A stretch of DNA of 64,000 nt from IMG/VR virus record IMGVR_UViG_3300032285_004054, positions 62,001-126,000 of that record, one strand, 5' to 3'. Each line of letters begins with the position of its first letter. Within the stretch, counting starts at the first letter, position 1. The stretch is from a virus. This document shows, piece after piece, positions 19,989 to 63,227 of the stretch. Under the pieces are notes generated by a model. That model had not been told where the DNA came from. It did no database searches and saw only the letters and a program-made list of their open reading frames with translations. Both the position numbers and the translations under genes were made by a program.

Positions 19989-22046
19989 TTAGAAGTTCCA
20001 GAGTTGAATAGCTCTTTGCTTACCGTTGATCGTCAGTACTAAGAAATCTCCTGTTGCTGTAATCGGATCAGCAAATGTTTGTACTTGAGCTCCTGTAAAT
20101 ACTACATTACTTAGTGTAGCAGTATTTGTTGAACTAATTGTACCTACAACTGTTAATGTGTTGTTCGGATTAGATGTATTAATACCGACATTACCACCTG
20201 ATTTAATTCTTAAGCGTTCATTAGGTGTTGCAGCAGGAGACCCTGTTGTTGTACCGCTCAACGCACCTCCTGTGAATAATACTAAATCACCTGTTGTAGA
20301 TTGTGTACCTAAAACAAAGTTATTTGCTGTTGAATTTGTATAGATGTACCCGTCATTAGCATTTGTAATATTAAATGTAGGGCTATACGAATTTCCGTTA
20401 TACGCATCACTATTAATACCTACATCAATATAGGCATTAGCACTATTGTATATAGAAAGATCTGTTGAAGCGGATATACCTGTATATTGATTTTGTATAC
20501 TTACATATCCAGAAGCTGTACTACTACTTTGTATGTTAAGTGTTTTATCGTTACCGTTTATATTGACACTCTTACCATATGAGCTATCTATAACTCCGTA
20601 TCTACTGTAAATTGTACCTGTATTAGAAGCACTAATATCACCGTAAACTGTTAATTGCTTATTAGGATATGCTGTATTAACCCCTACATTACCTGTTGAC
20701 TTAACTCTAATACGTTCATTGCCGCTGTTAATAGACGTACCGCTTAACGTACCTCCTGCGAAAAGTATTAAGTCACCTGAACTACTTGAAGTACCTAAAG
20801 CTAAATCATTAGCTGTTGAACTGCTATATGCATAAGCATCTCTAGGACCTGCTATTGTAAAAGCTGGTCCGTAACTGGCACCAACCCAGCCAGAGCTGTT
20901 AATACCTATATCAAAAAAGTCTCCTAAATTGTTTGTTGCGGTGAAATCAGCAGAAGCTGAAACACCGTTATTTGTAGATTGCACTTTTACATACCCTGAT
21001 TGTGTAGTGTTACTTTTAACGTAAACAACAGCATCATTACCGCTTGTGACCTGTCCTATAACAGTTAACTGATTGGTAGGGTTGTTTGTATTGATACCAA
21101 CATAACCGTCGTTTGTTTTTGTTGAATCACCTGCGATAAACAGTTTAGTTACACCGTCATCTTTGAAATTAATTACATCAGCGTCTCCTGCTTGATTAAC
21201 AGCTAATGCGACACCCCAACCGTAATTTGTTACGTCAATACTTACTGAACTTAATACCTTTTCGAATGATTGTAATCTTGTTGCGGAACCTATAACGTTT
21301 AGATTACCGTAAATGGTGACATCACCGTAATCGGTAAACCCGCCACTAATAGTATTAGTACCTACAATTACGTTTGTACCTGTTATGGTATTTGTACCGT
21401 TAAGAGTGTTAGTACCATAAGCAGATAGTGTACCCCAACCGGTAATTGTGTTGTTACCGTTAATAGTGTTTGTACCTCTAAGGGTGTTTGTACCATAGGA
21501 TGATAATTCACCCCAACCAGTAATTGTGTTGTTACCGTATATAGTATTGATACCCGTTAAAGCGTTTGTACCGTGCGCAGTAAACGTGCCTTCTTGAAGA
21601 AAATTGCCATCTGAGCTTACATCACCGTATATAGTGAGAGTAGTAGTGTTACCGAGAATATGTCCTAGGTAGTTAGGAGGACCTTGTAGGAATACACTAC
21701 CGTAATTTAAAATATCACCTGCTCCGTAAAAATTACCTGTTGATGAAATACTACCTACACTGACTATATTCCCTACTGATGATACAGCAAAGGAAGACAG
21801 ATTCATATTTTGTAAGTCAAAATTCGGATTGCTGATTATTACAGCTGTAGATAGGTTGAAAAAGTATGCAGCGTAAGAACTTAACGGTGAGAAGCAAGAT
21901 AAGGGCCCTAGTAACACAAAATCACCAAAGAAGGGAGATTCCTTTGAAGCAATTGGATCGTGACTACTATCAGGATATCTAGGATCTAAACTTCCATAAG
22001 TGTGGTGATTATGTCTGTGGAATTTATTATGTAATCTTGAGGACAT
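19989..22046 (-). CDS. Repeat-rich trimeric tail fibre/adhesin, 685 aa
   Basis: Residues 75-245 are a ladder of short beta-helix repeats built on (I/L)xGxNTITGW, G(T/N)NT(L/I)xG and YGTNTLRG, with some repeat units nearly identical at the DNA level (about 21380-21560). Residues 320-650 contain three repeats of about 155 aa, each starting (R)xKSxGNVGxNTxxPNxxLTVxGxIS and including ANDLALGTxSSxGDLxLFxGGxLSG. This is the adhesin head-repeat type common in Bacteroidota and marine phage fibres. No S74 autocleavage motif is seen at the C-terminus (QLWNF). CATAAATA lies 16 nt before the ATG. Confidence 0.75.
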   Translation of the reverse strand: MSSRLHNKFHRHNHHTYGSLDPRYPDSSHDPIASKESPFFGDFVLLGPLSCFSPLSSYAAYFFNLSTAVIISNPNFDLQNMNLSSFAVSSVGNIVSVGSISSTGNFYGAGDILNYGSVFLQGPPNYLGHILGNTTTLTIYGDVSSDGNFLQEGTFTAHGTNALTGINTIYGNNTITGWGELSSYGTNTLRGTNTINGNNTITGWGTLSAYGTNTLNGTNTITGTNVIVGTNTISGGFTDYGDVTIYGNLNVIGSATRLQSFEKVLSSVSIDVTNYGWGVALAVNQAGDADVINFKDDGVTKLFIAGDSTKTNDGYVGINTNNPTNQLTVIGQVTSGNDAVVYVKSNTTQSGYVKVQSTNNGVSASADFTATNNLGDFFDIGINSSGWVGASYGPAFTIAGPRDAYAYSSSTANDLALGTSSSSGDLILFAGGTLSGTSINSGNERIRVKSTGNVGVNTAYPNKQLTVYGDISASNTGTIYSRYGVIDSSYGKSVNINGNDKTLNIQSSSTASGYVSIQNQYTGISASTDLSIYNSANAYIDVGINSDAYNGNSYSPTFNITNANDGYIYTNSTANNFVLGTQSTTGDLVLFTGGALSGTTTGSPAATPNERLRIKSGGNVGINTSNPNNTLTVVGTISSTNTATLSNVVFTGAQVQTFADPITATGDFLVLTINGKQRAIQLWNF

Positions 22047-32318: not shown

Positions 32319-32873
32319 ATGTTAAACGATGACCTGACGTTTGTACCTCATTTATCAACAGTATTTGGGGAGGAAGTATTTACCTACTCCCCAGAACTTA
32401 CAAGTGCTTTACATTCTGCACTTACTGCTAATAACTTCTTTGATCATTTAACAACTATCCAGTCCTTTCTGTCGAGTTTCAGAGGTATACCTGAACATCC
32501 ATGGGAAGCGTTAAAGTATCAACATCTAGGCCCTGATTGGACTCCTCCTGCTCTTTCAAGTCTTGAAGTACCGGAAGACTTTAAACCGCACGAGCATATT
32601 AAAATAATGAATAATATTTCAACGAAGTATCATAATGTCTTAATGGACGAGATACAAAATGCTGAAGGAGGGTTACTTGATACTAATAAACTATCTAATG
32701 TACATTATACGGTTCTTTCGGCAGATGAACATGTTTACCATCCTGATGTACATCGTAACTATATCGGGTTTATAGAGACATTACGTTCTATTGAAACAGC
32801 TGATATTAAAGCAGATCCTCACACGGTAGCTAAAAAATTAATACATCACTATACATCCGGGTTTAGTGTTTAA
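32319..32873 (+). CDS. Hypothetical protein, 184 aa
   Basis: Not recognised. A soluble, His-rich helical protein (residues 25-60 LTSALHSALTANNFFDHLTT; 125-145 NVHYTVLSADEHVYHPDVHR). No late box at its start; probably read through from phoH, 33 nt upstream. Ends convergently with a 4-nt overlap of the spike gene. Confidence 0.55.
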   Translation: MLNDDLTFVPHLSTVFGEEVFTYSPELTSALHSALTANNFFDHLTTIQSFLSSFRGIPEHPWEALKYQHLGPDWTPPALSSLEVPEDFKPHEHIKIMNNISTKYHNVLMDEIQNAEGGLLDTNKLSNVHYTVLSADEHVYHPDVHRNYIGFIETLRSIETADIKADPHTVAKKLIHHYTSGFSV

Positions 32874-34816
32874 ACTGCGTATGTATCTGTAGCTTTTGCT
32901 ACAACTATCTTGAGAGGCTGTAAGATAGGCTCTAAGAACCCTGGTCTGTCTTGATCTGGGTTTGCTGTTGCAGGTATTTTCTCTTTCTTAGCAGATGAAT
33001 TTTCTCGAACTGATTTAGCGTCATCTAATAACTTAATATTAGGTGCTTCAAATTCGTGAGTATGGAACATATCAGGTAACTGATGCTGGTGAGGGAAGTT
33101 GTTTAAATCACATGGTCCAACTGCTTCAATAGTAGCAGGGTAACCATCTATTAATACTGACCATGTAGTACCCGGTATAATCCAGCCTGTAGGTTCCTGT
33201 TCATAAGGATTACACAGATATGATAAATGCTTCATATGATCATTTAACTTCTGTTGACCCTTAGGAGATGCAAGAGATAAGGAAGGATCTGTAGCCCATA
33301 TAGCAACATCTCTCTGCATATTTTCGATATGTTTAGATATTGCTTTTACAGCTATACCTCCCCAGGCAGCCATACCTGAATTCATATCAGGTGGACCAGA
33401 AAATTTTGTACGCTTAATAGTTGAAGGAGCTGATGCGGATATAAACGACAAGTCTCCTTCAACGTGAGCGCCGCCACCTACAACCATATTACTTGCTACT
33501 CCTAACGTACCCTGAACAACAACTTGACTGTCGCCGTCAGTTGCATTTAATGCAAGTGTTTTACCTGTTAATTGTAAATGATGACCTGAAACTGTAACAG
33601 GCCCTGACTGCGAACCTATTGTTACTTCTGGCCCTGTAATCTTAGTTATACCTCCTGCAATATTAACAGGACCGTGAGTAACAAGTTCAATACCTTGTGC
33701 TCCACTAAAAGCAGTAAATTTATTACTGCATTTAATAACGTAATGGCCTCCGGGAGTTGAAGGAGGATTTGTACCATAAACAGCTGGTGACTTCTTATTA
33801 ACAGTAACTTGCGCAACATCAGTACCGTGATATCCTGGAGCCTGAGTACCTTCAGGATCAACACGATAAGAGGTAGCGTTATTCATACCTAGTCCTACTT
33901 CCAAGCAATCATGACCTGCAATAATAGAATAACGGTTACCGCAACCTGATGGAGCACCAGCATTAGCTTCATGTTTCATTATCTCATCTTTTTTACTATC
34001 TAAATGCTGAGCGGCTTTTTTAGCATTTATACCTGATTGACCAGACGAATCTTTAACCTTATTTTTACCTTCGCATGTAGGACACTTACCTTTTTTAAAT
34101 AGTGAAGTAACATCTACTGCGTGTATTGTACCGTTAATGAAATCATCAATACCACCTACAACAGATCTTATTGCAAGAGGCGCACGAGGAAAGAAAGCTG
34201 TTAAATCGATATACTTTTTACCTGCTTTATTTTCTAGTGTTTTCTTCTTACCGCCATCACAAGTTGGGCAAGGAATTGTTAGAAGTTCCCAAGGAAAAGT
34301 ATCGCATAAGTTACTATTAACGCTATGTTTTCTATTGGGGTTGTTTAGAGGATCGTTAGGACCAAATGATGGTATATTAGGGTCATCAATAGGAGGACCA
34401 AAACGATAATAAGCAGCGTACGTACCTGATCTTGAACCTGTTTGTGTTCTAGGTACATCGTATACACTAACAGTTGAAGACGGGCTAGGTATCGTTGTAT
34501 GTAAATTTTGATCAAAAACCGGTACAGGTGTCTGAGAAATATCTGCTATTTTTGTACGTATTATGTCATTACCTACATTCGGAGAAGGAGTAGATACACT
34601 CTCTACTGATATACCTGAAGGTCCTAAGTTACTATAGTTACCTGCTAAATTAGATGCAGCTTGTGTAACCGGTATAACCGGAGCTGCAGTATTACCTGTT
34701 GCACACGGTTCTACAGATAACGCTACATTAAACGTTCCTGTAATATCGGTTGAGTTTAAAAGTGAAGCGTTTATATTTTGATCTTCAAACGCTGTATAAT
34801 TGTTACTAATGTCCAT
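32870..34816 (-). CDS. Tail spike/needle-like virion protein with zinc and HxH motifs, 648 aa
   Basis: Last gene of the hub trio. Residues about 185-260 contain two DnaJ-like Cys motifs (CPTCDGGKK and CPTCEGKNK), probably one zinc site. Residues 360-460 are beta-helix-like (FSGAQGIELVTHGPVNIAGG, then VTISGHHLQLTGKTL-type strands), like the C-terminal shafts of VgrG/gp5 spikes. Near residue 580 comes NFPHQHQLPDMFHTHEF; HxH pairs bind iron at the tip of phage spikes such as P2 gpV. Order and motifs suggest a membrane-piercing or hub-cap component. Assignment is by pattern only. Confidence 0.55.
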   Translation of the reverse strand: MDISNNYTAFEDQNINASLLNSTDITGTFNVALSVEPCATGNTAAPVIPVTQAASNLAGNYSNLGPSGISVESVSTPSPNVGNDIIRTKIADISQTPVPVFDQNLHTTIPSPSSTVSVYDVPRTQTGSRSGTYAAYYRFGPPIDDPNIPSFGPNDPLNNPNRKHSVNSNLCDTFPWELLTIPCPTCDGGKKKTLENKAGKKYIDLTAFFPRAPLAIRSVVGGIDDFINGTIHAVDVTSLFKKGKCPTCEGKNKVKDSSGQSGINAKKAAQHLDSKKDEIMKHEANAGAPSGCGNRYSIIAGHDCLEVGLGMNNATSYRVDPEGTQAPGYHGTDVAQVTVNKKSPAVYGTNPPSTPGGHYVIKCSNKFTAFSGAQGIELVTHGPVNIAGGITKITGPEVTIGSQSGPVTVSGHHLQLTGKTLALNATDGDSQVVVQGTLGVASNMVVGGGAHVEGDLSFISASAPSTIKRTKFSGPPDMNSGMAAWGGIAVKAISKHIENMQRDVAIWATDPSLSLASPKGQQKLNDHMKHLSYLCNPYEQEPTGWIIPGTTWSVLIDGYPATIEAVGPCDLNNFPHQHQLPDMFHTHEFEAPNIKLLDDAKSVRENSSAKKEKIPATANPDQDRPGFLEPILQPLKIVVAKATDTYAV

Positions 34817-34825
34817 TTTATATTA

Positions 34826-37021
34826 TTAGTTTTGTTTCATTATTTCGTTTGCTTGATTAAGAATATCTTGTATACCTTTAACAGCATCAAACGCTTTTTG
34901 TGTTATATTACCAACTTTAACAAAGTGATCGCCCATAGTTACCATATTGTGATCTCCTTGTGTGTAATGTTCTCTATTACCTAAGGCAGCATCAAAAGAA
35001 TGTCCATCAGATTGTTTATAAAAATCATCTGGTGAATATAATACGGTGTGATCATTTTGAAATGCTAAGTGGGCACCATTATGATTAGCAATTTTAATGC
35101 CTCGTTGATCACCAATAGAATCTCCTGACGAATCATTGAATAAAATAGCTCCTGAACCGTTCGGTCTAAAGACAGAAGACTGCGTATATACTTTATTATC
35201 ACTACTATCGTTTGCGTTAGGGTAGTAAAGTGGTGGCGAGCTACCATGATATGCACTCGCCCATTCAGTAGGCCCGAAGCTTGCTGCAAAATAAACTGGG
35301 AATAACGGATTACCTTCTTGGAAGAATACCCATAAAAACGCTCCTTCATTGGGTACTGCAAACATACCTTGTGCCATACCGTTAGTATCTGTCGGAGAAG
35401 GTCCTTTACCTGTTGTTGTTTGAATTACATTTGAACTCGGTGCTTTACCACCTGTGCCCTTTGAACCGCCTCCGCCGTCACCAACGGTCTTATCAGACAT
35501 TGGCTGTCCGCCATAAGCGGCTTGCGCTTTTCTATACTGACTATTTGTTTTAGACCCTAAACTCTGAACAGCACAAAATAGATTACTCAATTTACCTTCA
35601 TACGCTGCAGGTGTATTAGTAAAGAAGTCAAAATGGAAATAACAACGCTCAGCGTTACCGGTATCAGTAACAGTGTATGTACCTGCAGGATTATTACCTG
35701 AAGGATTAAACGGTGATTTATCGTTATTGAATATACTTAAAACAGTACCTCCGGGGTAGTGAGTTGAGCCTACAGTGTGATCTGCATTTAATGGTCCGTA
35801 ACAACCGTTGTAAGCGTCTGCAAGGTTCAGGGTACCTGTTCTCATACCTCGGGCGTTCATACTAGCTTCCTGTCTTGCAATAAATTCAGGTGAATATTTT
35901 GCTAAAATTTCAGGAGGTCGCTGAGACGGTTTAATATCAAGAAGAGTGGTAAGATCGGTTTCTGGTCCTCCGTAGGTTGTACCGCTACAAGGTTCAAGAG
36001 ATGAATTAGGAAATTGAGGTGTAACACCTTTTGTATCTGGTTTAGCGTCTTGTCCTTCTTGACCTTGTAAAGCAGGTGCACCCTCAGGGTTTTTAAAAGG
36101 CATTGCAGCAGGTCTTAGCCCTTGGGCACTACCATCTGGAGCAGCAGTTGTAGCATTAGCTGTTGTAGGGGCTTGATCTGTTGCAGTTGAGTTATTCGTA
36201 ACAGCTGTAGGATCAATTTGAGCACCAGGTTCAGCTCGTTGATACATTTCCTGTGAAGGTAGGTATACCTGAATGTTTGAAGCATTACCGTTATACGCAT
36301 TACCTGGCCCTGCTTCACTCCAAACCCATTTACCGGTACCATCTGATAATTCCATATGGCCGTTTTCACCGCCATTAGAAACCTTTACAGCACCAGGAGG
36401 ATATGTTGCATTAGGATCATATGCTACAGGCTGAAAACCTGCTTTGACTAAATTTGGACCAAAATCTTTAGCAGATGCTGTTGGTGCAATATTAACACCG
36501 AATGTCTTATTAAGAGCGTTTGTACTAATAGCTGCACAATACGTACTAGCACCTGTTGTACCTGTTTTAGGGTTATAATGCTTTGGGTAGTTGGTTGCAG
36601 CTATAATTTTTTGACCTAACGAAGAAGCTGACGAAGAATCTAGTAATGATTTACCTGCTGCAAGAGCACCAGAAGCAAGATTTGTTGCACCTGCTACTGC
36701 TCTACCTAGTACATCTTTTGCACTTTGTAGCCAATTACCTGTACTGGAATCTCTGTGCCCTGCAGTACATGAACCAATAATCGGTGAAGCTGCTTCGCAC
36801 CAGGGAAGAATTTTCTGTAATGTTTTTAAAACATTGTCATCTAATGCTCCGTTTAAATTTGCACCTAATGATTTTATATTAATATCAGTACCTGCTTGAT
36901 TCCATTTTTCATATAGAGCAGGCATGATATGAGGAATGAATACCTTAACACGACCTCTAAATTCAGGGTCTTTGTTATAAACACAAACTCCCAAATAATT
37001 ACCGTAATATTCTTTCATCAT
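34826..37021 (-). CDS. Baseplate hub, gp5-like, with inserted CHAP-like and RlpA/3D-like domains, 731 aa
   Basis: The N-terminus (residues 7-35, GNYLGVCVYNKDPEFRGRVKVFIP) and LPWCEAASPI (72-81) plus GMFAVPNEGAFLWVFFQEGN (552-571) and PLFPVYFAA form the OB-fold of T4 gp5, split by a large insertion. Inside it, residues 135-260 look like a CHAP/NlpC-like peptidase (TYCAAISTNAL with Cys162; ENGHMELSDGTGKWVWSE with His222). Residues 395-460 look like a double-psi barrel (YNGCYGPL, PGGTVLSIFN, GTYTVTDTGN). T4 gp5 instead carries one lysozyme domain. The role is local wall digestion during DNA entry. 10 nt from the spike gene downstream. Confidence 0.65.
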   Translation of the reverse strand: MMKEYYGNYLGVCVYNKDPEFRGRVKVFIPHIMPALYEKWNQAGTDINIKSLGANLNGALDDNVLKTLQKILPWCEAASPIIGSCTAGHRDSSTGNWLQSAKDVLGRAVAGATNLASGALAAGKSLLDSSSASSLGQKIIAATNYPKHYNPKTGTTGASTYCAAISTNALNKTFGVNIAPTASAKDFGPNLVKAGFQPVAYDPNATYPPGAVKVSNGGENGHMELSDGTGKWVWSEAGPGNAYNGNASNIQVYLPSQEMYQRAEPGAQIDPTAVTNNSTATDQAPTTANATTAAPDGSAQGLRPAAMPFKNPEGAPALQGQEGQDAKPDTKGVTPQFPNSSLEPCSGTTYGGPETDLTTLLDIKPSQRPPEILAKYSPEFIARQEASMNARGMRTGTLNLADAYNGCYGPLNADHTVGSTHYPGGTVLSIFNNDKSPFNPSGNNPAGTYTVTDTGNAERCYFHFDFFTNTPAAYEGKLSNLFCAVQSLGSKTNSQYRKAQAAYGGQPMSDKTVGDGGGGSKGTGGKAPSSNVIQTTTGKGPSPTDTNGMAQGMFAVPNEGAFLWVFFQEGNPLFPVYFAASFGPTEWASAYHGSSPPLYYPNANDSSDNKVYTQSSVFRPNGSGAILFNDSSGDSIGDQRGIKIANHNGAHLAFQNDHTVLYSPDDFYKQSDGHSFDAALGNREHYTQGDHNMVTMGDHFVKVGNITQKAFDAVKGIQDILNQANEIMKQN

Positions 37022-37046: not shown

Positions 37047-39419
37047 TTATTCTCCAAGGAATTGTTTACGTGCATTCATTTTTTGTTGGTACTGAGCAGC
37101 GGTTGCTTTATCGAATGTTGCAGGTTCTTGGCTAGCGCTACCTGCTGGTTGAGGGGCTTGTGCGCTACTATTACCTAAGAACTGATCAGCTGCTGCATTT
37201 GACGATGCAGTACTATTACCTAAGAACTCATCTGTAGCAGGATTTGTTGGTGTTGGTGTACTATTACTGTTACCTAAGAATTGTTCTGCTGCCGCACTAG
37301 AAGGTGTACTACTATTTCCTAAGAACTGATCTGCTCCTGCACTTGACGGTGCACTACTGTTACCGAGGAACTGATCTGCTCCTGCACTCGAAGGAGCGCT
37401 CTCATTACCTAAAAATTGATCTGCGGATTGTGTACTCGGTGTAGGGGTAGTATCAGCATTATCATCATTGTAAATGCCTGAACTTGTTGCACTTGCTCCT
37501 GTACCTAACGATTCTTCAGTGTCAGCATATGTTATAGGTGATTCTTCACCCGCTAAATCATTAGCAGCAGATGTGGGTTCGGGTTGAGCTACATCCATAC
37601 TACCGGGAGAAGCAAGATCTGTCATATTGAATGCAGCATCAGACATATTATTATAAATTCTTTCTTGATTGTTGAATGTTTCTTGACCGTTATCAGCCAT
37701 AGCTAACTCAACAGGTGATAATGTTGCAGCTTCAATCGGGCTTGTTACATTGCTGTAATCTAGATTGAAAGGTTTGTCTGCTGCAGCAGTTGCAGCTGCG
37801 GAAGCATCTCCGTATGTTTTTTGAGCATCAGCTGCATTACTCGGAGCATTTGCTGTAGATGTAGCAGGATCAAGTGAGTAAGGTGCTTTAGGTGCACCGA
37901 GACAGGGATCCTTAACAACCTGTCCACTTCTATCTGTGTTATAATTAGGACGACCAGGGGCAGATACGTTATTGTATTTGTAGCTAAAAGCCGGTGGAAC
38001 AGGAGGAGCAGTAGGTTTAAAAATAGAATTTAAAATTTGAAATTGACTACTAAAAGCGCCTATTATGCCTGCAAGTACACCACCTTTAATTTGGTCTAAA
38101 GCAGTAGTGAGACCATACCCCATATTGTAGTTATAACCGTATCCGGATATCTTATTAAGAATACATAGTATCGTACTAAACGGCGGTGGTAATGCGCTTA
38201 CCAAAGCTTCAGGATTATTTAAAAACGCCATTCCTTGTTGAACTTGCGGTGGTAGGAAACGAGCAGCTAATGCAGCAGGGTTGGAAATAATAGACCCTAG
38301 CTGTCCTGTAACATTTGTTAATTGGCTTGTAAATTGTGTTATTTGGTTTAAACCTCCAAATGCGCTTGCTATAGAACCTACACTACCTGCGATCTGGGTA
38401 ACAGCTTGTAAAAAGCCTAATACCATATTAAGAGGTATCAATTCATTTATAATCATGAATACAAATTTTTGTAACATGTAAAATAAATCATTAATAAATT
38501 TACCGATGCTTTTGATAATATTCATAGCACCTAGATACATGTCCTTAATAAACTGTACAGGTCCGAATAACTTACCTCCTGCCATAGCGCTTTGTAAGTG
38601 TTGAATACTACCGTATATATTACCTGGTAGATGGGATATCTCCTCCATCTTAATAGCTAGAAAAGAAGCTTCATGGGATTGAGCAAATTTTGGATTTACC
38701 TTGTTAATAACCCCGCCTATTGTAGGTATAATACCATGGGCACCTAAAGGATCTCTTAGCATACCAGTTAAACCGTATAAAGTTGAACCGATAAACTTAT
38801 TAACAGGTTTAAACTTGTCATGCATTATCTGTACTGCTTGACCAAGTGATGATGCAATACCTGCTTCAGCACCAGCTAACCCGTTAGCAATACTACCTAC
38901 TGCACAATTTATAGAATTATTAGCGGTATTAACAAATAGATTAGCGTATTGATTACGTACAATAGCGTGTACATCCTGGGTTAAAGCACCAGGTGCGGCT
39001 TGAATACCAGCACCGTTTAACATTGCATTTGATTGCATCAACGCAGCTTCCATACCGGAATTTGTTGCTTGTGCTTGATTTAGCATGTTAAATGCATTAT
39101 CAAAAAGACCTAAATGAGGTATAACTTTATCCTTTTTAGCAGGGTCTAGTATACCGGTTAACCAAGTATCAGGCCCGTTTAAGTAAGTAGTACCTTTACC
39201 GCTAGCAGATGATGGTGTACTACTTTCTCCTAAGAACTGATCTGCTCCAGCACTCGAAGGAGCGCTACTATTGCCAAGAAATTGGTTCGCTCCTGTACTT
39301 GATGGTGCGCTGCTATTGCCAAGAAATTGGTTTGCTCCAGCACTTGAAGCAGCGTTCCGAGCAGCAAGTTGATCAAACTGCGCTCTAGCAGCATCTCCAG
39401 TTAGTTTTTGTACAGACAT
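37047..39419 (-). CDS. Virion protein with QFLG repeats at both ends, 790 aa
   Basis: First gene of the hub trio. Three copies of (A/D)QFLGxSSxPSS lie near residues 29-75, six more between about 660 and 760, and the protein ends RKQFLGE, ten in all. The centre (residues 80-560) is helical with long hydrophobic stretches (FINDLFYMLQKFVFMIINEL, then IPLNMVLGFLQAVTQIAGSV), resembling tape-measure or membrane-inserting hub proteins. It is 26 nt upstream of the gp5-like gene. Which T4 protein it replaces is unclear; gp29 (tape measure) or gp27/gp28-type hub roles are options. Confidence 0.5.
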   Translation of the reverse strand: MSVQKLTGDAARAQFDQLAARNAASSAGANQFLGNSSAPSSTGANQFLGNSSAPSSAGADQFLGESSTPSSASGKGTTYLNGPDTWLTGILDPAKKDKVIPHLGLFDNAFNMLNQAQATNSGMEAALMQSNAMLNGAGIQAAPGALTQDVHAIVRNQYANLFVNTANNSINCAVGSIANGLAGAEAGIASSLGQAVQIMHDKFKPVNKFIGSTLYGLTGMLRDPLGAHGIIPTIGGVINKVNPKFAQSHEASFLAIKMEEISHLPGNIYGSIQHLQSAMAGGKLFGPVQFIKDMYLGAMNIIKSIGKFINDLFYMLQKFVFMIINELIPLNMVLGFLQAVTQIAGSVGSIASAFGGLNQITQFTSQLTNVTGQLGSIISNPAALAARFLPPQVQQGMAFLNNPEALVSALPPPFSTILCILNKISGYGYNYNMGYGLTTALDQIKGGVLAGIIGAFSSQFQILNSIFKPTAPPVPPAFSYKYNNVSAPGRPNYNTDRSGQVVKDPCLGAPKAPYSLDPATSTANAPSNAADAQKTYGDASAAATAAADKPFNLDYSNVTSPIEAATLSPVELAMADNGQETFNNQERIYNNMSDAAFNMTDLASPGSMDVAQPEPTSAANDLAGEESPITYADTEESLGTGASATSSGIYNDDNADTTPTPSTQSADQFLGNESAPSSAGADQFLGNSSAPSSAGADQFLGNSSTPSSAAAEQFLGNSNSTPTPTNPATDEFLGNSTASSNAAADQFLGNSSAQAPQPAGSASQEPATFDKATAAQYQQKMNARKQFLGE

Positions 39420-39493: not shown

Positions 39494-40426
39494 GTGAACG
39501 AATATGAATATATTATACTACATATTGATGGAGGTATGGGTAAAAACGTTGCTGCAACTGCTGTTGCGCATGCAATTAAAAAACAACATTTTGTAAGTAA
39601 GTTAATTATTGTTACAGCATGGCCTGAAGTATGGATACATAATCCAGACGTACATAGGGTTTATAAGTTTGGTACTTTGCTATATTTTTACGAGGATTAC
39701 ATTAAGGATAAAAAGACTAAAATAATGCGTCTTGAGCCTTATCATTCTGAAGATCTTCTTCTAAAGAGAAAGCATCTTGCAGAGGTTTGGTGTGATCTTT
39801 ATGATATTCCCTGTGATAGCGTACAGCCTAGAATTTATCTAAGTAACAGGGAATTAATGGCTGCAAACGCTCTGGTTAAAAAGCAAGGACCTATACTTGT
39901 TGTTCAGTCCTCAGGTGGTGCAGATGGTCAAGGATACCCCTATTCATGGGCTAGAGACCTACCACCTCAGGTAGCTCAAGAAACCGTAAATCTTGTTAAA
40001 TCACAATTTAGTAAGGTATATCAAATAAGACGAGATAATCAGATTGTAATCGATGGTACGGAACAATTAACAGGTAATCTTCGAGACATTATTAGTGTTA
40101 TTGCATTATCTGATAAGTTTTTAGGTATTGATTCACTTATGCAGCATGCTTGTGCTGCTCTTAATAAGCCTGCTACCGTAGGATGGATTGCTAATTCGCC
40201 AACTGTGTTTGGTTATAAGTTGCATAATAATATAATTGCAAAAGGTAGTACTGAGTTTAAGCATTACGTTGAATCGTATTTAGAAGAGTATGACTGGGTA
40301 GGTAGTCGATTCCATGAATGTCCTTATACTGATGTAAATAGTATTTTTGATATTAAAGAATTAGCTAATTCTTTGCTTGAACCTGGTACAAAGTTAGTAG
40401 ATAATAATGGTCTGCTTTTAAACTAA
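39494..40426 (+). CDS. GT9-like glycosyltransferase, 310 aa
   Basis: Start is GTG 39494. Residues 6-25 (YIILHIDGGMGKNVAATAVA) match the Gly-rich N-terminus of ADP-heptose-type (GT9) transferases. The C-terminal lobe has ILVVQSSGGADGQGYPYSWA and SDKFLGIDSLMQHACAALNK followed by PATVGWIANSP, the usual donor-site layout (D-S-x-x-x-H-x-A). It acts on a sugar acceptor in the cytoplasm. The stop codon overlaps the ATG of the sulfotransferase gene, which suggests both modify the same glycan. Confidence 0.7.
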   Translation: MNEYEYIILHIDGGMGKNVAATAVAHAIKKQHFVSKLIIVTAWPEVWIHNPDVHRVYKFGTLLYFYEDYIKDKKTKIMRLEPYHSEDLLLKRKHLAEVWCDLYDIPCDSVQPRIYLSNRELMAANALVKKQGPILVVQSSGGADGQGYPYSWARDLPPQVAQETVNLVKSQFSKVYQIRRDNQIVIDGTEQLTGNLRDIISVIALSDKFLGIDSLMQHACAALNKPATVGWIANSPTVFGYKLHNNIIAKGSTEFKHYVESYLEEYDWVGSRFHECPYTDVNSIFDIKELANSLLEPGTKLVDNNGLLLN

Positions 40427-41250
40427 TGAAAAATATATTCTTTAATTCATCAATGCCTAGAAGTTGTTCTACCCTTCTTCAGTGCATTTTTAATCAGCAT
40501 CCGGAGATTCAAGCTACACAAACCGACCCTGTACTTGAATATCTTTATGGTGCTAGGATGAATTATACGAGTACACCAGAGGTTAAAGCTATGGATAAAG
40601 ATCTAGCTTTGAATACCTGGCGTGGGTTCTGTTGGGGTGGTCTTCAAGGATATGCTGATGCTTATACCGATAAACCTAATCTTTGTATTAAGACGAGAGG
40701 CGCTTCAATTCATTATTCTTGGTTTAATGCTTTTATGCCCTATCAGCCTAAAATGATCTGTATGGTAAGAGACCTTAAAGGTATAATTGCTTCTATGGAA
40801 AAGCTCTATAGAGCAAATCAAGAACATCATCAGGAGATACAAAATCATAGAGATATGAAAGGTACATCTACAGCAAAGAGAGTAGATGCTTGGTTTGCCT
40901 CCCCACCTGTTGGTTTAGCATTAGAACGTTTACAGCAATGCGTACACGAAGGTATTAATAAGAATATACTTTATGTACGAGCAGAAGATCTTTCTTCTAA
41001 TCCTTCCGAGCAAATGGAACGAATTTATAGTTATCTTGATCTACCTAATTTCGAACACGACTTTAAAAACGTCGAGCAGTCTATTAAGGAAGATGACTCT
41101 GTTTATGGTTTAACAGATACTCTTCACACAATACGCAGAGAGGTAAAAGCACTTAAGGATGATTCAAGGGAGATCCTGGGAGAACCAGTTTGTACTTGGA
41201 TTGATAATACCTTTCAATGGTACCAGAAAGGCTTTGGATACCTTAAATAA
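40426..41250 (+). CDS. PAPS-dependent sulfotransferase, 274 aa
   Basis: The 5'-phosphosulfate loop is FFNSSMPRSCSTLLQ (residues 4-18) and the 3'-phosphate element is MICMVRDLKGIIASME (about 106-121), both standard in the sulfotransferase superfamily. A terminal segment LYVRAEDLSSNPSEQMERIY is also typical. Transfers sulfate from PAPS to a hydroxyl or amine; the coupled GT9-like gene makes a glycan the likeliest acceptor. The same phage encodes APS kinase at 26360, which makes PAPS. Overlaps the GT gene by 1 nt. Confidence 0.8.
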   Translation: MKNIFFNSSMPRSCSTLLQCIFNQHPEIQATQTDPVLEYLYGARMNYTSTPEVKAMDKDLALNTWRGFCWGGLQGYADAYTDKPNLCIKTRGASIHYSWFNAFMPYQPKMICMVRDLKGIIASMEKLYRANQEHHQEIQNHRDMKGTSTAKRVDAWFASPPVGLALERLQQCVHEGINKNILYVRAEDLSSNPSEQMERIYSYLDLPNFEHDFKNVEQSIKEDDSVYGLTDTLHTIRREVKALKDDSREILGEPVCTWIDNTFQWYQKGFGYLK

Positions 41251-44934: not shown

Positions 44935-46404
44935 TTAGAGATAGACAGCGGCGGATCCAGGTGTGAAGGACTGGCCCAGACCGGTGCAGATTACTAAGTG
45001 ATAGTAAAGGTTAGCACCGAAAATGTGGTCAACAACACCGTAACGGGTTAAGAGACCAACACGAGGACTGAAGTCATTCGGACCGATTGTACGCTGAACC
45101 ATTACAGGGATGTAAGGGCAGTATACGATACCGGTATCATAATACTCAGGGCCCTTATAGCCGAGCAGGGCGTAATCGACCTGTCCGACGGGACGCTTGT
45201 TACCACCAGCACTGTAGCCAGCGCCTGCGGGATTGTACCCAGCGTTGACTTGTGCCTCTGTACGAGTATCACGATAGATCTGGAAACGACCACCAACGGC
45301 ACCAACTTTAGCAATACCAACGGGTGTGGTATTTACTGAGCCAGTAACGGGCTGCCATGTGAATGTGGGCAGTGACTCAAGAATAGCGCAAATACGAGGT
45401 GTAGCAATAATGAAATTGGCTGCACCACGGCGGTTGCGGATAGCGACACGATTGGCCTCAACAACAATTCTGTTGTAGAAGTCACGAGCGCGCTCACCGG
45501 ACCAGCGACCGTCAGCAGAAATTGCTGACCATGTGCTGTAACCAACACCGGCGCCTGCGGTTAAGCAGGTCTGAATCATACGTGAAATCATTTCACGGTC
45601 AATTTCAGCCTGAATTTCGTAGGACATGGCGTTTGTGAGCTCGGCATCGATGTCGATACCATTCATATTCTTAAGATCCTGCTCTAATTCGACAGACCAC
45701 TTAGCGGCGAGACGGCGTGTGCCGGCCTCGACAGCGGTCTTCTCAAATGATACTGTTACCTGAGGGATGTTGGAGCTGAGTTCAAACTGGCTGAGGATCG
45801 CGGCTACGCCGGCGTCTTCAGGCAGAATGGCCCAATCATCGTTACCGGTTAAGTTACCACTGGTAACGCCTGTGAAGGCGGTATTCAGATAGTTGTAACC
45901 GATTTCCTTACCCTTGCTAGCACTAGCAGGTCCATACATTGATGTTGCCTGAGCCCCACCGAGGGTGAGATCATTACGGCCATCACCGTATGTGCTATTA
46001 CCGAGGGAAGATGCCTCGTAGCGGTAACGCATGGCGAATGCCAGACCAACGGGTCCTGTCATGGGCTGTACACCAACGATCTCATTTGTGATGAGTTCGG
46101 GGAATGTACGGCGGATCATGGGGATCAGAACCTTAGGAAGACGAGCATCACCGTTTGCGTATGTGTCGCTGTTAGGAATGGTACCAGGGTTAACCTGATA
46201 GGCATTACCACCAAAGACACCACCACTAGCAGTGTTGGAAGACTCAAAGCACCACTTCTCCTGGTTTTCCAGAAGGATGGCGGTATTGAGACGTGTGTTA
46301 TCATTTTCGATAGCAGCTACCTTGTCAGAAGAGTAGTCCAGAACTGGAGCCCACTTTTCAACTAAAGATGTAGCCTTGGATTTATCGATATGCAGAAGTT
46401 CCAT
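44935..46404 (-). CDS. 23: Major capsid protein, T4 gp23-like, 489 aa
   Basis: Forms the head shell. The N-terminal part (residues 16-60, VEKWAPVLDYSSDKVAAIEN, then TAILLENQEKW) aligns with the cleaved propeptide and start of T4 gp23 (LLNKWKPLLEG...KIFENQEKDF). LIPMIRRTFPELITNEIVGV, QPMTGPVGLAFAMRYRYE, and the C-terminal PVMVQRTIGPNDFSPRVGLL, TRYGVVDHI are standard gp23 blocks. G+C and codon use are clearly higher than in neighbours. It has an AAGGA sequence 12 nt upstream of the ATG, unlike most genes here, and an own terminator. Confidence 0.92.
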   Translation of the reverse strand: MELLHIDKSKATSLVEKWAPVLDYSSDKVAAIENDNTRLNTAILLENQEKWCFESSNTASGGVFGGNAYQVNPGTIPNSDTYANGDARLPKVLIPMIRRTFPELITNEIVGVQPMTGPVGLAFAMRYRYEASSLGNSTYGDGRNDLTLGGAQATSMYGPASASKGKEIGYNYLNTAFTGVTSGNLTGNDDWAILPEDAGVAAILSQFELSSNIPQVTVSFEKTAVEAGTRRLAAKWSVELEQDLKNMNGIDIDAELTNAMSYEIQAEIDREMISRMIQTCLTAGAGVGYSTWSAISADGRWSGERARDFYNRIVVEANRVAIRNRRGAANFIIATPRICAILESLPTFTWQPVTGSVNTTPVGIAKVGAVGGRFQIYRDTRTEAQVNAGYNPAGAGYSAGGNKRPVGQVDYALLGYKGPEYYDTGIVYCPYIPVMVQRTIGPNDFSPRVGLLTRYGVVDHIFGANLYYHLVICTGLGQSFTPGSAAVYL

Positions 46405-52879: not shown

Positions 52880-54802
52880 TTATGCTGCTCCTGGAGAACC
52901 TACTGCTGGAGAAGAACCTTGTGTAGGTGCTAAACCTGGAGTCTCAGATGGTGCTCCTGCGCCTGGAGGAGGAGGACTAGCTGTACCTACGTTAGCACTA
53001 CCTTCTTCACCGCCTGGAGATGGCGACGATCCTCCAAATTCAGGTATTGCGGAACCTCCACCGCCACCACCACCTCCAGAGGTTAGAGGTGGTAGACCAC
53101 CAGCTCCTTCTTCCCCTGTACCGAGACCGGCTTGAGCTGCTAATTGCTCTCTGAAGTTAGGTCCTGAAGTTTGTATTTGTGTTAATTCCCATAAGAGTGC
53201 GGCATCTTTCTTCTGCCACTCTCTATTTTCTTTCATTAAATCGTCAGATAAACCTAGATAATATTTTTGAGCATATGACTTAGATATAGACTCGTTGCCT
53301 GTAATCTTAAGGAAATTATCAAACTTGAGATCAAGCAGCTGTTGCTCTCTCATCGCCATGAACGATGTAGGTATATTAAACTCTACATGCATTGAACGTT
53401 CACGTAACTTAAATTGCTTCCAAAGACCTTTTAACTTGAGATGCGCTATAAATGTATCTCTAATGCTAGTGGCAAACTGGCGCTGAAGACGAATAACGAA
53501 TCTAGCAAATCTTAATTCATCTCTTGTTATTTCAGTACCGTCTTTAAATGGTGAATCAGCTACAAGGAATCTACTTACAGGTATCTTTAGAGAGTTATAA
53601 AGCTTCTTTAAGAAATAATTTAAATCATCTAACTGACCTAAATTAGCACCACCTTGCATCATTTCAACATCTGTACCTTTTCCTTGGGCGTCTACAGGGA
53701 ACCAATATGAATCTAACATCGACTGTGGATCGTAAACGTTAGTCATTGAGCCTTTTTCTCCGTGAGATGTGTCAAAGTTTTTCTTTGACCAGTACTGCTG
53801 CATTAATCTCTTAACGTATGCTTCTGCTTTAGGTGCAGGCATTGTACCTGTATATACTTTAAACTTAAGACGTTCAGGTGCTCTAACTAAACGATAGATA
53901 ATAATAGAATCCTCAAGTAATGATAACTGACGATAAGCACGTTTTGAGTTCTCAATATAAGGTAAACGAATTGTCTTAAACTCATTCCAAATACCAGAGT
54001 GAACATATGTTACCTGAGCTTTCTGCATAAAGAAAAGCTCTTCCTGGTCTTTCTTATTAATTGATGAAGCGGGTGCTTTGACTGTCTTTCTTAATAAGAA
54101 CCCCTTTACAAGTTCGTTCTGTACGTTAGAATAAACAGGGTTAATAATTTCAGATGGTATGCTAACTAAACCAATTATACCTAGTTCAGGTTTATCGTTA
54201 TCTATAATATTTTCCCAGAACAGTTCACCGTCAATTAAGAACTGTCTAAAATACTCCCAACCAGAGTCTTCTAGATCATAGATAACTACGTGTTTTTGGA
54301 ATTCTTTTTCGATTAAATCTTTAACTTCTTTTGTATATTCACCTCTTAATTGGAAGTTGACAATAATATCATTTTCGTCTTTTACAACACATTCATCGCA
54401 AATTTCATCTAAACAATCTGCAAGTTCAGCGTATGCAGCCATACGTCTATAATCTTGCAAGCGGCGTGTTTTGTCTTTATCAACACTTGCATAGATAAAG
54501 GCCTGATAATCTTTGTTAATTAAGATGTTACCTGGAGCAGAACTATCACCGATACCTGCACCTGCAGGGTCTTGTAAAAAGACGGACTGTGCTTGTATAA
54601 ACTCTTCTCTCTTAGGAGCTACACCCTTAAAGTCATAAAACTTAGGATTACGCTGAATCATCGAATCAATGATCTGGTATGCGTAAGGGAGTCTCGATAT
54701 AAACGCGCCTAGGAGAGATGTTGACGGATAGGCCTGATCCTGAACAGGACCTGTAGAACTTCCCGGGATAGCGTTGTTATATGTTTGCTGATTGTAAATC
54801 AC
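52880..54802 (-). CDS. 20: Portal vertex protein, T4 gp20-like, 640 aa
   Basis: Dodecameric portal for DNA packaging and exit. Start is GTG 54802. Landmarks: RLQDYRRMAAYAELADCLDE, then ICDECVVKDENDIIVNFQLR; WEYFRQFLIDGELFWENII; RLVRAPERLKFKVYTGTMPA, KAEAYVKRLMQQYW; KIPVSRFLVADSPFKDGTEI and RDELRFARFVIRLQRQFATS, all standard in gp20. Slightly longer than T4 gp20 (524 aa) because of a Gly/Pro/Ser-rich disordered tail of about 80 residues. Confidence 0.9.
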   Translation of the reverse strand: MIYNQQTYNNAIPGSSTGPVQDQAYPSTSLLGAFISRLPYAYQIIDSMIQRNPKFYDFKGVAPKREEFIQAQSVFLQDPAGAGIGDSSAPGNILINKDYQAFIYASVDKDKTRRLQDYRRMAAYAELADCLDEICDECVVKDENDIIVNFQLRGEYTKEVKDLIEKEFQKHVVIYDLEDSGWEYFRQFLIDGELFWENIIDNDKPELGIIGLVSIPSEIINPVYSNVQNELVKGFLLRKTVKAPASSINKKDQEELFFMQKAQVTYVHSGIWNEFKTIRLPYIENSKRAYRQLSLLEDSIIIYRLVRAPERLKFKVYTGTMPAPKAEAYVKRLMQQYWSKKNFDTSHGEKGSMTNVYDPQSMLDSYWFPVDAQGKGTDVEMMQGGANLGQLDDLNYFLKKLYNSLKIPVSRFLVADSPFKDGTEITRDELRFARFVIRLQRQFATSIRDTFIAHLKLKGLWKQFKLRERSMHVEFNIPTSFMAMREQQLLDLKFDNFLKITGNESISKSYAQKYYLGLSDDLMKENREWQKKDAALLWELTQIQTSGPNFREQLAAQAGLGTGEEGAGGLPPLTSGGGGGGGGSAIPEFGGSSPSPGGEEGSANVGTASPPPPGAGAPSETPGLAPTQGSSPAVGSPGAA

Positions 54803-59624: not shown

Positions 59625-62600
59625 TTAATTAATGATAAGATTCTTAGTTAGATAGTAACTAAACATACTTTCTATAATACCTCCATCAGCATATAAATCA
59701 TCAGCTGTAGATAGCGTTCTATTAATAGTTGTAAAAGGACTATTCCAATCTATAACACTTTCAATAAAACGTTCATTAAAGCTTACATCAGATAATTTAG
59801 CATATAGCGCTGCACCTGTTAAATTAGGATATAATGTATTAAGCGTTAGTAACGGGTTAGGGTAATAGACAGGATGATACTCATAAAAACGGTATTTTGT
59901 AGGGTCTGATATATTTTGCAATAAACCAAAGGAAGGGTATAGGTTTAACGGGTAGTGTTGTTGATGTTCTTCGGGTAAGAATGTATTAACAGGTACTACA
60001 TTTAAAACAGGTCTAGAATCGTAAATACTTTGTATGTATATTCTTTGACCCGCTGTTACAAAAGCAGTATTAACATCTAACGGATATTTCATACTTTCGT
60101 TTATACTTTCAGATGATAAAGGAGTACTATCTAATATACCCCATAATTTTGTACGAGGTATTGAAGCAATATCAATCATGTTTTGTACTTCAGCAGGATA
60201 TACATTGCTAAAATTAATAGCTGAAACATCCATTGAGCGTGCTAGAGACATTAATTGTGTTATATTACATGTATCAACATCGCTGTGATTGGGTACGAAA
60301 TTCGCAATTCGTTCGTATGTCTTTTGACCTATATCTTCGTAACCGCTAGGGGCTGCAGTACCTACCATAGCGCCTAAATAGCTATCAAAAAGTTTGTCAT
60401 TTTGAGATAAAATATCCGGTAAAGCAAGAGATTTATAATAATCTGCTGTACTAAAACTTTCATTAAGTCTTCTTAAACCAAACGATTTATTAAAGTTATA
60501 GATGTTAAAGTTGTTAGATGCACCGCTTATTGTATCTGTAAAATTAGCATATTTCTGAAACCATTTATTACCTGTCCAGTCTCCAGTAGCTTGAGCAGAT
60601 TTGTAAGGAGGGGCTGTCTGGGTGTATGTAAAAGTGTTTTCGAGGTTATTAAGATACCCGATACTTGTCCATGGTTGTATTTTAAAATAACGAGGGCGAA
60701 TTGACTTTTCTAAAGATGGTGTAGCTGATAATAAAAATACATTATTCATCTTCGAATCAATAACCCAAAGACGATTATAAGGGTCAACAGCTATACCGCC
60801 TAATTCTTCATCATAACCTTTTGCAAAATCAGGATTTAATTCTTTATTTGTAAAATCATCATCACCAGCATTATCATAATAGAAAATATTATTACTAGAG
60901 TCTATATTATTAAATGATAAAAACGCCTTACTAACGTCAAGGTAACTCAATTTTAAATCATTATTGTAAACTGTGGGGTATGTTTCTTTAGGCGGTATAT
61001 ACCAGGAGGATACAGCTGCTGTTGCTCTATCAATAAAACCTATATTTCGTATACCATGTGTAAACCAAATATTATTGTGTTTGTCAAGGCACATATTATT
61101 AGGTCTTGAAAACCAAGTAGGTGTTAGAGGCGGACCGCTACTTACTGTGCTTAAGAGTGTGTACTTTGTATTAACGTATCCTTTAACACTACCTTTACTG
61201 TAATAAACATTAGGGTCACCGTATAGTCTAAAACAACCACCGAAATCCGTGTCATGCATTTCGTCCATTACCCATACCTGATTTTTTTTGTTAATAGCTA
61301 TACCTAGTGTTGTACTTGTATTACCGAGATTAATTTGGTTGAGTACATCCCCTGTTGGACTATATTGTACTAGTAAACTACAAACAGGGTGAGTGTATGT
61401 AACCCAAGCGTTACTATTTGAATCTGTTTCAACAATAGACGGTCTTAATAATTCGTCACCGGTAAAGTTATTATAAGGGGCATCAAATGTATAGTTTATA
61501 GGTATACCTGAGGGAGCAGCAATAGCAGATAAATTGAAATGATAGTCAAGCTTAATTACAGATGCTGTATCAAATAATGTAATCCATGTATTACCGCATC
61601 TATCAATACTTGTATAAGCTGGGGTACAACCTGCTGTGAGATTATTAATACCTGTTATACTTGAAAGTGAAACTGAGCATAAAATTGTACCGGTTGTGTC
61701 TATACGATATAATCTGTCTAATTCAGCATCAGCAGCAACAACGGTATGATCACCCGGAAATAACGATATACTATAGATACCCGAATAACCAGACATTCCG
61801 TAGTTAAACGTATTACCTGGTGTATCTACCCAAGGAGTATCTGTAATAGTTATTGTTGTATCAATTAACGTTCCGTTGCTCTTGTAAATATCAATAGTTG
61901 TACATCCTTCAGGATAAGGCATTGATAATATTTGATATAAGTTTTTATTTTCAGCATTTGAAATCCAAGCTATTGGTGTTGGACCGTAACCACCCGCGTA
62001 GGGAAAATCCCATTCAGCTAAATAAGGATTTTCGTTCGGAACAGTATACGCAACTATAGTAGCGTTTTCAGCAGTAGCGGTAGCTGCAGGTGTAATTGTT
62101 GTAAATACGTAACCGCCTGTATCAAACCCGTTGACATCGGTACGTTGAAAATGTATAGCGTCAGGATCAGTAGTGTAGGGTGTTGTAGCAGAAACATTAA
62201 TCACAGAAGGTACTATATTACCATCTTGATCTATTATATCTAAATTTAAGACTGTTGATAACCCTGTAGGATTATCTACAGGGAAATTGTAAATTATACC
62301 ACTACTTGTTGTCGGTACACCAGTATAACAAAAACGATTTGCAAGATTTGAATGACCGGTTATTAATACCGGTATGGGGTAACCAGCCCATTTACTTGTT
62401 GATATACCGTCAATATAATTACCTGTTACTTTAAAATAATCAGGCTTATAATCATAGAACTGCCAGGCAATAGTAGCACGGGTTACTGTTGTATTACTAT
62501 AACTAAAATATTTGTATGTATTGGTTTCAAGCGGTACAGGTAGTGCTGATGTCTGCAATGTAGCGATAATAACTAACGGGCAATTTTCTGTAGGGTTACC

Positions 62601-63227
62601 TATACTTTGATCATCTCTAAATTTGAATTGACCGGAACCTGAAACAGCTACAACGTTACCGTCTTTATTATACAGATTAACAGTTTCAATATTTAGAGTA
62701 TCAATGGCGTTACCACTTAAATCGTAAAAACTCCAAGTAGGTGTTAAGAATTTCCATTTACCAGTAGCAAAATCAAGCGGTATAGAAGGAGAGTTTGCCG
62801 CAAATAATTTTACTTTAATGGGTTCATTTATTTGAGCAGATATTATGTTAACAGTAAACGGTTCAGGAGAAATTTCTCCGGGTGTACCGAACTGTTTCGG
62901 GTAATTTGCAAACGATATATAATCTCTATAAACGTAGTCAACAGAAATACTCGCAGTATTAGTACTATAGGTATTATCATACCCAAAAGCAGATAATGTA
63001 ACCGTATATATACCTGGAAATTTATATACATGAGACGGGAACAATGTATCGTATGCAATATTACCGTCACCGAAATTCCATATAACTTGTTTTACATTAG
63101 GGTCATACGCGGAAATACTCGTATATGTAGGACCGTTAAAATAAAAAACAGTACCATATACGTCTCCTGATAATTGAGGAACACCTGTAAGTGATGTTGA
63201 GTATATACTAATAGGAGGCGTAACCAT
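59625..63227 (-). CDS. Giant baseplate-region protein with PKD and NHL repeats, 1200 aa
   Basis: Directly follows gp6 on the same strand (9 nt), the place of gp7 in T4 (1032 aa). Residues 30-100 are a PKD-like domain (KQVIWNFGDGNIAYDTLFPS, then HVYKFPGIYTVTLSAFG). Residues about 490-850 carry NHL/Vgb propeller repeats (ITAGCTPAYTSIDRCGNTWI-type, LCLDKHNNIWFTHGIRNIGF, IAVDPYNRLWVIDSKMNNVF). The C-terminal 300 residues (NHSDVDTCNITQLMSLARSM, then IDIASIPRTKLWGI) look like a conserved wedge-associated region. Likely wedge protein with a grafted propeller. Confidence 0.6.
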   Translation of the reverse strand: MVTPPISIYSTSLTGVPQLSGDVYGTVFYFNGPTYTSISAYDPNVKQVIWNFGDGNIAYDTLFPSHVYKFPGIYTVTLSAFGYDNTYSTNTASISVDYVYRDYISFANYPKQFGTPGEISPEPFTVNIISAQINEPIKVKLFAANSPSIPLDFATGKWKFLTPTWSFYDLSGNAIDTLNIETVNLYNKDGNVVAVSGSGQFKFRDDQSIGNPTENCPLVIIATLQTSALPVPLETNTYKYFSYSNTTVTRATIAWQFYDYKPDYFKVTGNYIDGISTSKWAGYPIPVLITGHSNLANRFCYTGVPTTSSGIIYNFPVDNPTGLSTVLNLDIIDQDGNIVPSVINVSATTPYTTDPDAIHFQRTDVNGFDTGGYVFTTITPAATATAENATIVAYTVPNENPYLAEWDFPYAGGYGPTPIAWISNAENKNLYQILSMPYPEGCTTIDIYKSNGTLIDTTITITDTPWVDTPGNTFNYGMSGYSGIYSISLFPGDHTVVAADAELDRLYRIDTTGTILCSVSLSSITGINNLTAGCTPAYTSIDRCGNTWITLFDTASVIKLDYHFNLSAIAAPSGIPINYTFDAPYNNFTGDELLRPSIVETDSNSNAWVTYTHPVCSLLVQYSPTGDVLNQINLGNTSTTLGIAINKKNQVWVMDEMHDTDFGGCFRLYGDPNVYYSKGSVKGYVNTKYTLLSTVSSGPPLTPTWFSRPNNMCLDKHNNIWFTHGIRNIGFIDRATAAVSSWYIPPKETYPTVYNNDLKLSYLDVSKAFLSFNNIDSSNNIFYYDNAGDDDFTNKELNPDFAKGYDEELGGIAVDPYNRLWVIDSKMNNVFLLSATPSLEKSIRPRYFKIQPWTSIGYLNNLENTFTYTQTAPPYKSAQATGDWTGNKWFQKYANFTDTISGASNNFNIYNFNKSFGLRRLNESFSTADYYKSLALPDILSQNDKLFDSYLGAMVGTAAPSGYEDIGQKTYERIANFVPNHSDVDTCNITQLMSLARSMDVSAINFSNVYPAEVQNMIDIASIPRTKLWGILDSTPLSSESINESMKYPLDVNTAFVTAGQRIYIQSIYDSRPVLNVVPVNTFLPEEHQQHYPLNLYPSFGLLQNISDPTKYRFYEYHPVYYPNPLLTLNTLYPNLTGAALYAKLSDVSFNERFIESVIDWNSPFTTINRTLSTADDLYADGGIIESMFSYYLTKNLIIN

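Follow-up and report, generated by a model that had tools for sequence, protein, structure and literature searches.

An uncultivated T4-like phage with two wall-cutting-type domains inside the OB-fold of its spike hub

In the usual account of phage entry through the cell wall, each spike has a single, fixed lysozyme. We examined a spike-hub gene in which two further domains lie inside the OB-fold itself. The locus raises the question of what these domains are, and whether their presence is a peculiarity of one virus or the mark of a family of hubs.

The gene lies in a stretch of 64,000 nucleotides (the window) taken from a 218.4-kb record of an uncultivated T4-like phage. The major head protein encoded at 44935-46404 is about 34% identical to cyanophage gp23, and the portal (52880-54802) is about 31% identical to cyanophage gp20, so we place the virus in the T4 superfamily. 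Across the 16 kb compared, the window shows 100% identity to a 93-kb IMG/VR contig, which we regard for this reason as the same virus.

The hub gene is an intact ORF at exactly 34826-37021, on the minus strand like all of its parts described below, and encodes a gp5N-like protein of 731 amino acids. The reading that we consider probable is that this protein is the OB half of a two-gene spike of the T4 gp5 type, carrying an exchangeable cassette of a peptide cutter and a glycan cutter.

The interrupted OB frame

About 80 related loci, all of them on uncultivated metagenome contigs, were found in IMG/VR with the C-terminal OB piece and alignment A1. A single branch (support 100/99) separates the hub loci into two groups. 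On one side, 28 hubs (25 in the tree, as well as L045, L050 and L053) form a clade with the same interrupted OB frame, which we call class a. Their inserts are 290-560 amino acids long and contain two domains each, except for the one-domain inserts of L043 and L051. Class b hubs have an OB linker of 57-116 amino acids, in which no recognisable enzyme was detected, and carry the beta-helix in the same chain. The sister clade L063-L102 consists of hubs without an enzyme in the OB linker.

Outside these contigs, neither the hub or its domains nor the downstream gene found a convincing relative by tblastn among 50,697 phage records, and a scan of genome contigs with the hub alignment found none. 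The cyanophage Syn19 "peptidase" Syn19_136, considered as a possible hub, proved to be unrelated.

A preliminary description of this DNA had proposed that the OB-fold of a gp5-type hub is interrupted here, and our results agree. The second half of the PF04717 profile (positions 41-73) matches hub residues 548-580 (E 1.9e-4); the hub scores 22.2 bits against a cut-off of 23.8, which several relatives exceed. Relatives match the first half of the profile at their N-terminus (e.g., residues 8-39 of L047 correspond to profile positions 1-32), and the second half follows several hundred residues further on. Given that both halves are matched apart in relatives, the insert splits a single OB profile. 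In the hub alignment, strong conservation is seen mainly at residues 2-83 and 552-595. The N-terminal OB half, with strands 1-3 (residues 2-83; 36773-37018), and the C-terminal half, with strands 4-5 (residues 548-583; 35273-35380), flank about 460 enclosed residues.

The structure prediction proposed in the same description for the 731-residue protein was carried out with AlphaFold2 and Foldseek, and gave a gp5/VgrG OB match and a weak CHAP match. The model (alignment A3; mean pLDDT 58) has OB strands at residues 9-15, 25-28, near 75, 562-567 and 575-578. These positions put the insert between the third and the fourth OB strand. Foldseek matched the model to VgrG, eCIS spikes, the R2 pyocin spike and T4 gp5 (1k28, prob 1.00).

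The remaining C-terminal region (residues 584-731; 34829-35272) is beta-rich, with confident strands at 612-662; the Gp5_trimer_C profile (PF22178) is weakly matched in the relatives L007 and L025. The hub has the PF04717 OB domain of gp5/VgrG-type spikes, and the beta-helix expected after it is represented by residues 612-662 together with a separate downstream gene. It lacks the arrangement specific to T4 gp5, in which one precursor chain has a single lysozyme between its OB-fold and its beta-helix.

The two inserted domains

The first inserted domain (residues 146-262; 36236-36586) is CHAP/NlpC amidase-like. Its residues 161-234 match the crystallised type VI secretion (T6SS) amidase Tae3 (PDB 4hz9; phmmer E 6e-4), a T6SS effector that is its nearest relative. 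Cys162 (codon 36536-36538) and His222 (codon 36356-36358) align with Cys23 and His81 of Tae3, which form the catalytic dyad of that enzyme (PMC11796386). A separate, weak Foldseek signal linked the model to CHAP domains, those of LysGH15 and LysK (prob 0.4-0.7, E 0.4-0.7). Among the CHAP-type hub domains seen complete, the Cys and the Gly-His are kept in 12 of 12. The CHAP/NlpC-like segment around Cys162 and His222, already recognised in the preliminary description, is thus confirmed; at the level of sequence, slot 1 is shown to be homologous to Tae3, a solved member of the family with catalytic Cys and His, and it is a candidate amidase.

A low-complexity linker (residues 263-345; 35987-36235), with low pLDDT at 277-360, separates the two domains. 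When viral contigs were scanned with the window domains singly, and with the L030 domain, the identical contig was the only one recovered.

The second inserted domain spans residues 346-505 (35507-35986). Blastp relates residues 348-468 to a domain of L030 (30% identity, E 4e-6), and alignment A5 has Asp402, Asp453 and Asp465 (numbered as in the 731-aa hub) kept in three sequences (P0001, L030 and L038). The homology indicates that this segment is a real conserved domain.

Its fold is harder to assign. Pfam and PDB sequence searches returned no match for it, no profile match to DPBB_1, 3D, MltA or RlpA was obtained, and hhalign comparisons with RlpA, MltA, the barrel of Anabaena phage A-1(L), L038, L044 and L060 were not significant. 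The barrel of L044/L046 resembled that of A-1(L) (hhalign probability 54, E 1e-4). In the AlphaFold2 model, the window domain has a pLDDT of 59. Its Foldseek matches are non-significant (E above 0.5), yet enriched in what we take to be double-psi barrels: the p97 N domain, expansin, kiwellin and a viral chitosanase. A 3D/double-psi-barrel fold fits both the motif and this weak list, and is somewhat more probable than other folds. The RlpA/3D-like double-psi barrel that had been described here therefore survives in part: the domain is conserved and the fold plausible, but no match to an RlpA or MltA profile was found.

A changing cassette in a constant frame

The families occupying the slots of related hubs suggest what the window pair might do. 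The peptide side of the repertoire comprises CHAP/NlpC, M15/VanY, M23 and Tlde1-like domains, and the glycan side SLT, lysozyme-like, DPBB, GH75-like, SleB-like and endolysin-like domains. By Pfam or PHROG we found, on the peptide side, VanY in L038, L044 and L046 (values of 2e-10, 9e-9 and 6e-8 among them), Amidase_5/CHAP in L048, L052 and L054 (Amidase_5 3e-5; CHAP 1e-3), NlpC in L033, M23 in L062 (7e-5; also PHROG metallo-endopeptidase and endolysin) and a Tlde1-like domain in L036 (0.03). On the glycan side, SLT occurs in L031, L034, L047 and L052 (1e-3 to 5e-3, but 0.1 in L052), GH75 in L060 (2e-5), DPBB_1 in L044 (E 0.012) and an endolysin-like RNNNPGN domain in L032, L036 and L059 (PDB Gp29 and endolysin 7q47). 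L032 and L038 match endolysin or tape-measure PHROGs. The lysozyme-like E..GDYGxxQ, IHWREAS, SleB-like and some M15-like classes were assigned by motif; a PDB search with the profile of the lysozyme-like group, A4, returned nothing.

Two observations concern individual slots. In L043 and L051 the first slot is empty and only a lysozyme-like domain is present; both hubs nevertheless retain a linker akin to the one that joins the two domains elsewhere in the family. Residues 164-244 of L047, in slot 1, resemble (43%, 8e-6) a protein that Glutamicibacter phage Montesquieu encodes beside its holin, and this suggests that the L047 domain may have originated from a lysin.

All two-domain hubs (26/26) pair one peptide-type with one glycan-type domain on our class assignments. 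Random matching would give this result with a chance of 1e-7 for 26 pairs, or 1.5e-3 if 12 are independent, values that serve as a guide and not as a blind test because the assignments were made knowing the hypothesis. The peptide-type domain comes first except in one clade (L032, L033, L034, L036 and L037), which is the sister of the window hub. The slot families of relatives thus give strong indirect support to the idea that the window hub carries a putative peptide cutter and a putative glycan cutter.

Alternatively, domain 1 might be the sole enzyme, and domain 2 a wall-binding or structural barrel that aids a single lytic activity. Kiwellin and expansin are examples of double-psi barrels that can lack hydrolytic activity, and both the fold and the catalytic residues of domain 2 are putative, its hhalign and Foldseek matches being non-significant. 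However, the partners of peptidase slots in relatives often belong to glycan-cleaving families (SLT, GH75, endolysin-like), and the three Asp residues are kept between P0001, L030 and L038. We consider this alternative unlikely, though it is the most credible of those weighed here.

The pairing of a peptide-type with a glycan-type domain persists while the domains themselves change. On the 25-tip frame tree, the domain combination changes at least 19 times, with 14 changes of the glycan part, 9 of the peptide part and one of the order. Related domains also occupy different slots: the RNNNPGN domain of L032 (slot 1) is 66% identical to that of L059 (slot 2), and SLT sits in slot 2 of L031 but in slot 1 of L034. 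Close pairs of phages reveal recent changes. L030 and L052 have frames that are 94% identical and flanking DNA that is about 86% identical; their homology extends through the frame and the linker between the domains, and is lost only in the two slots. L032 and L050 share 99.5% identity across 6.8 kb that end where slot 2 begins; from there on they differ, and the L050 contig stops inside this slot. Comparison of these predicted proteins thus shows slots exchanged between phages around a constant OB frame.

Apparent swapping could also arise from chimeric metagenome assembly, given that the relatives are all uncultivated contigs and that repeats and linkers can mislead assemblers. This explanation is improbable: several hubs are present in identical form on two or more contigs (L034/L035, L038-L042, L054/L055), reading frames are intact through both slots, and the divergence of frame and slots spans a deep tree.

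With exchange between phages as the preferred reading, the conserved linkers are likely recombination sites. Whether the loop between strands 3 and 4 is a dedicated two-slot socket and recombination hot-spot, in which selection keeps one peptide and one glycan cutter, appears to us evenly balanced. On that reading, trading of the socket's contents would possibly follow the wall chemistry of the host, or escape periplasmic inhibitors of the Spackle or Tai type.

A two-gene spike and its relation to known tail tips

The gene downstream of the hub (32870-34816, minus strand; 648 amino acids) encodes a putative gp5C-like beta-helix and tip. Class b hubs have a homologous C-terminal portion (7e-30 to 2e-23), so that the region lies in-chain in the sister clade, and a homologue of the gene comes next in all 25 cassette loci tested. 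These comparisons show a spike that is split at the gene level, with the predicted beta-helix in its own downstream gene. In maturation, T4 gp5 is proteolytically cut into two chains, gp5* and gp5C (PMC3004832). The same two-chain state would thus be reached by a split between genes here and by proteolysis in T4.

The cut of T4 gp5 (PMC3004832) makes a protease in the hub imaginable, and the CHAP-type insert might then be a morphogenetic protease or a structural decoration, in cassettes without a role in peptidoglycan; this is very improbable, because no maturation cut is needed when the beta-helix is already a separate gene, and unrelated wall-hydrolase families substitute in the same slot.

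We therefore return to the wall-cutting cassette, for which we infer the following mechanism. OB strands 3 and 4 flank a plug-in cassette of two wall-cutting-type domains. Slot 1, a Tae3-like CHAP/NlpC peptidase or amidase, would cut stem peptides, and slot 2, with its presumed 3D/double-psi-barrel-like fold, would probably act on glycan strands. In a trimer, three copies of each cassette domain would stand beside the spike. After tail contraction, the separately encoded beta-helix tip would pierce the outer membrane, and cutting of stem peptides and glycan strands by the cassette would open a local hole for the tube. Recombination, probably at the conserved linkers, would swap the cassette while one peptide and one glycan type are retained, and different host wall chemistry or inhibitors may be the reason for the turnover.

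T4 gp5 resembles the window hub in joining an OB-fold to a beta-helix spike and in placing a lytic domain at the tail tip. As the preliminary description correctly stated, T4 has one lysozyme, located after the intact OB-fold, in one precursor that is cut (PMC3004832). By contrast, the window hub has two domains inside the OB-fold, and its spike is encoded by two genes.

Dual-enzyme tail tips are already known from A-1(L), CBB and Tae17. In the Anabaena myophage A-1(L), the hub gp15 carries lysozyme, endoglucanase and peptidase domains, and lytic activity was demonstrated for the latter two (PMC10966104). Like the window hub, gp15 thus combines glycan-type and peptidase domains on one baseplate protein. 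However, its enzymes sit on a hub with a conserved barrel domain, the OB spike gp25 is separate and enzyme-free, and exchange is unreported. Protein CBB_240 of the Rak2-like phage vB_PcaM_CBB has a gp5-type OB domain, an M23 peptidase and a lysozyme (PMC5259590; in our Pfam search M23 0.0046, Phage_lysozyme 3e-9), but there the OB-fold is uninterrupted (about 28-120), with both enzymes located after the beta-helix. Tae17 combines a lytic transglycosylase and a Tae3-like amidase on VgrG, with activity shown (PMC11796386). Tae3 and Tae17 share with the window hub a Tae3-like amidase with a Cys/His dyad and a gp5-related spike. They differ in being cargo on the VgrG C-terminus, not inside the OB-fold, that kills rivals, and Tae3 comes with an immunity protein. 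We found no report of an OB-internal, exchangeable enzyme pair in the open-access papers searched.

Neither the swapping across the family nor the separate gene for the beta-helix was noticed in the preliminary description, and both are more interesting results than its observation of one interrupted hub. A conserved structural core appears to act as a natural interchange platform for wall-enzyme pairs, with recent exchanges visible between close phages. The system offers a direct way of asking whether wall chemistry or inhibitors select the enzymes used for entry, and the cassettes are a potential source of paired muralytic-type domains.

We now note properties of other genes in the window. 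Just upstream of the hub, a 790-aa gene (37047-39419, minus strand) has 45-bp (15-aa, ADQFLGNSSAPSSAG-type) repeats near both of its ends (37160-37424 and 39244-39354). Tandem repeats of 78 bp occur at 21391-21572, inside a 685-aa ORF (19989-22046, minus strand) without a PHROG match. Two adjoining plus-strand genes (40426-41250 and 39494-40426) have a Sulfotransferase-family match (Pfam 1e-11) and a very weak glycosyltransferase-9 match, respectively, and are possible surface or glycan modification genes. Finally, a 1200-aa protein encoded at 59625-63227 (minus strand) contains a PKD domain (6e-8) and is possibly a virion surface protein.
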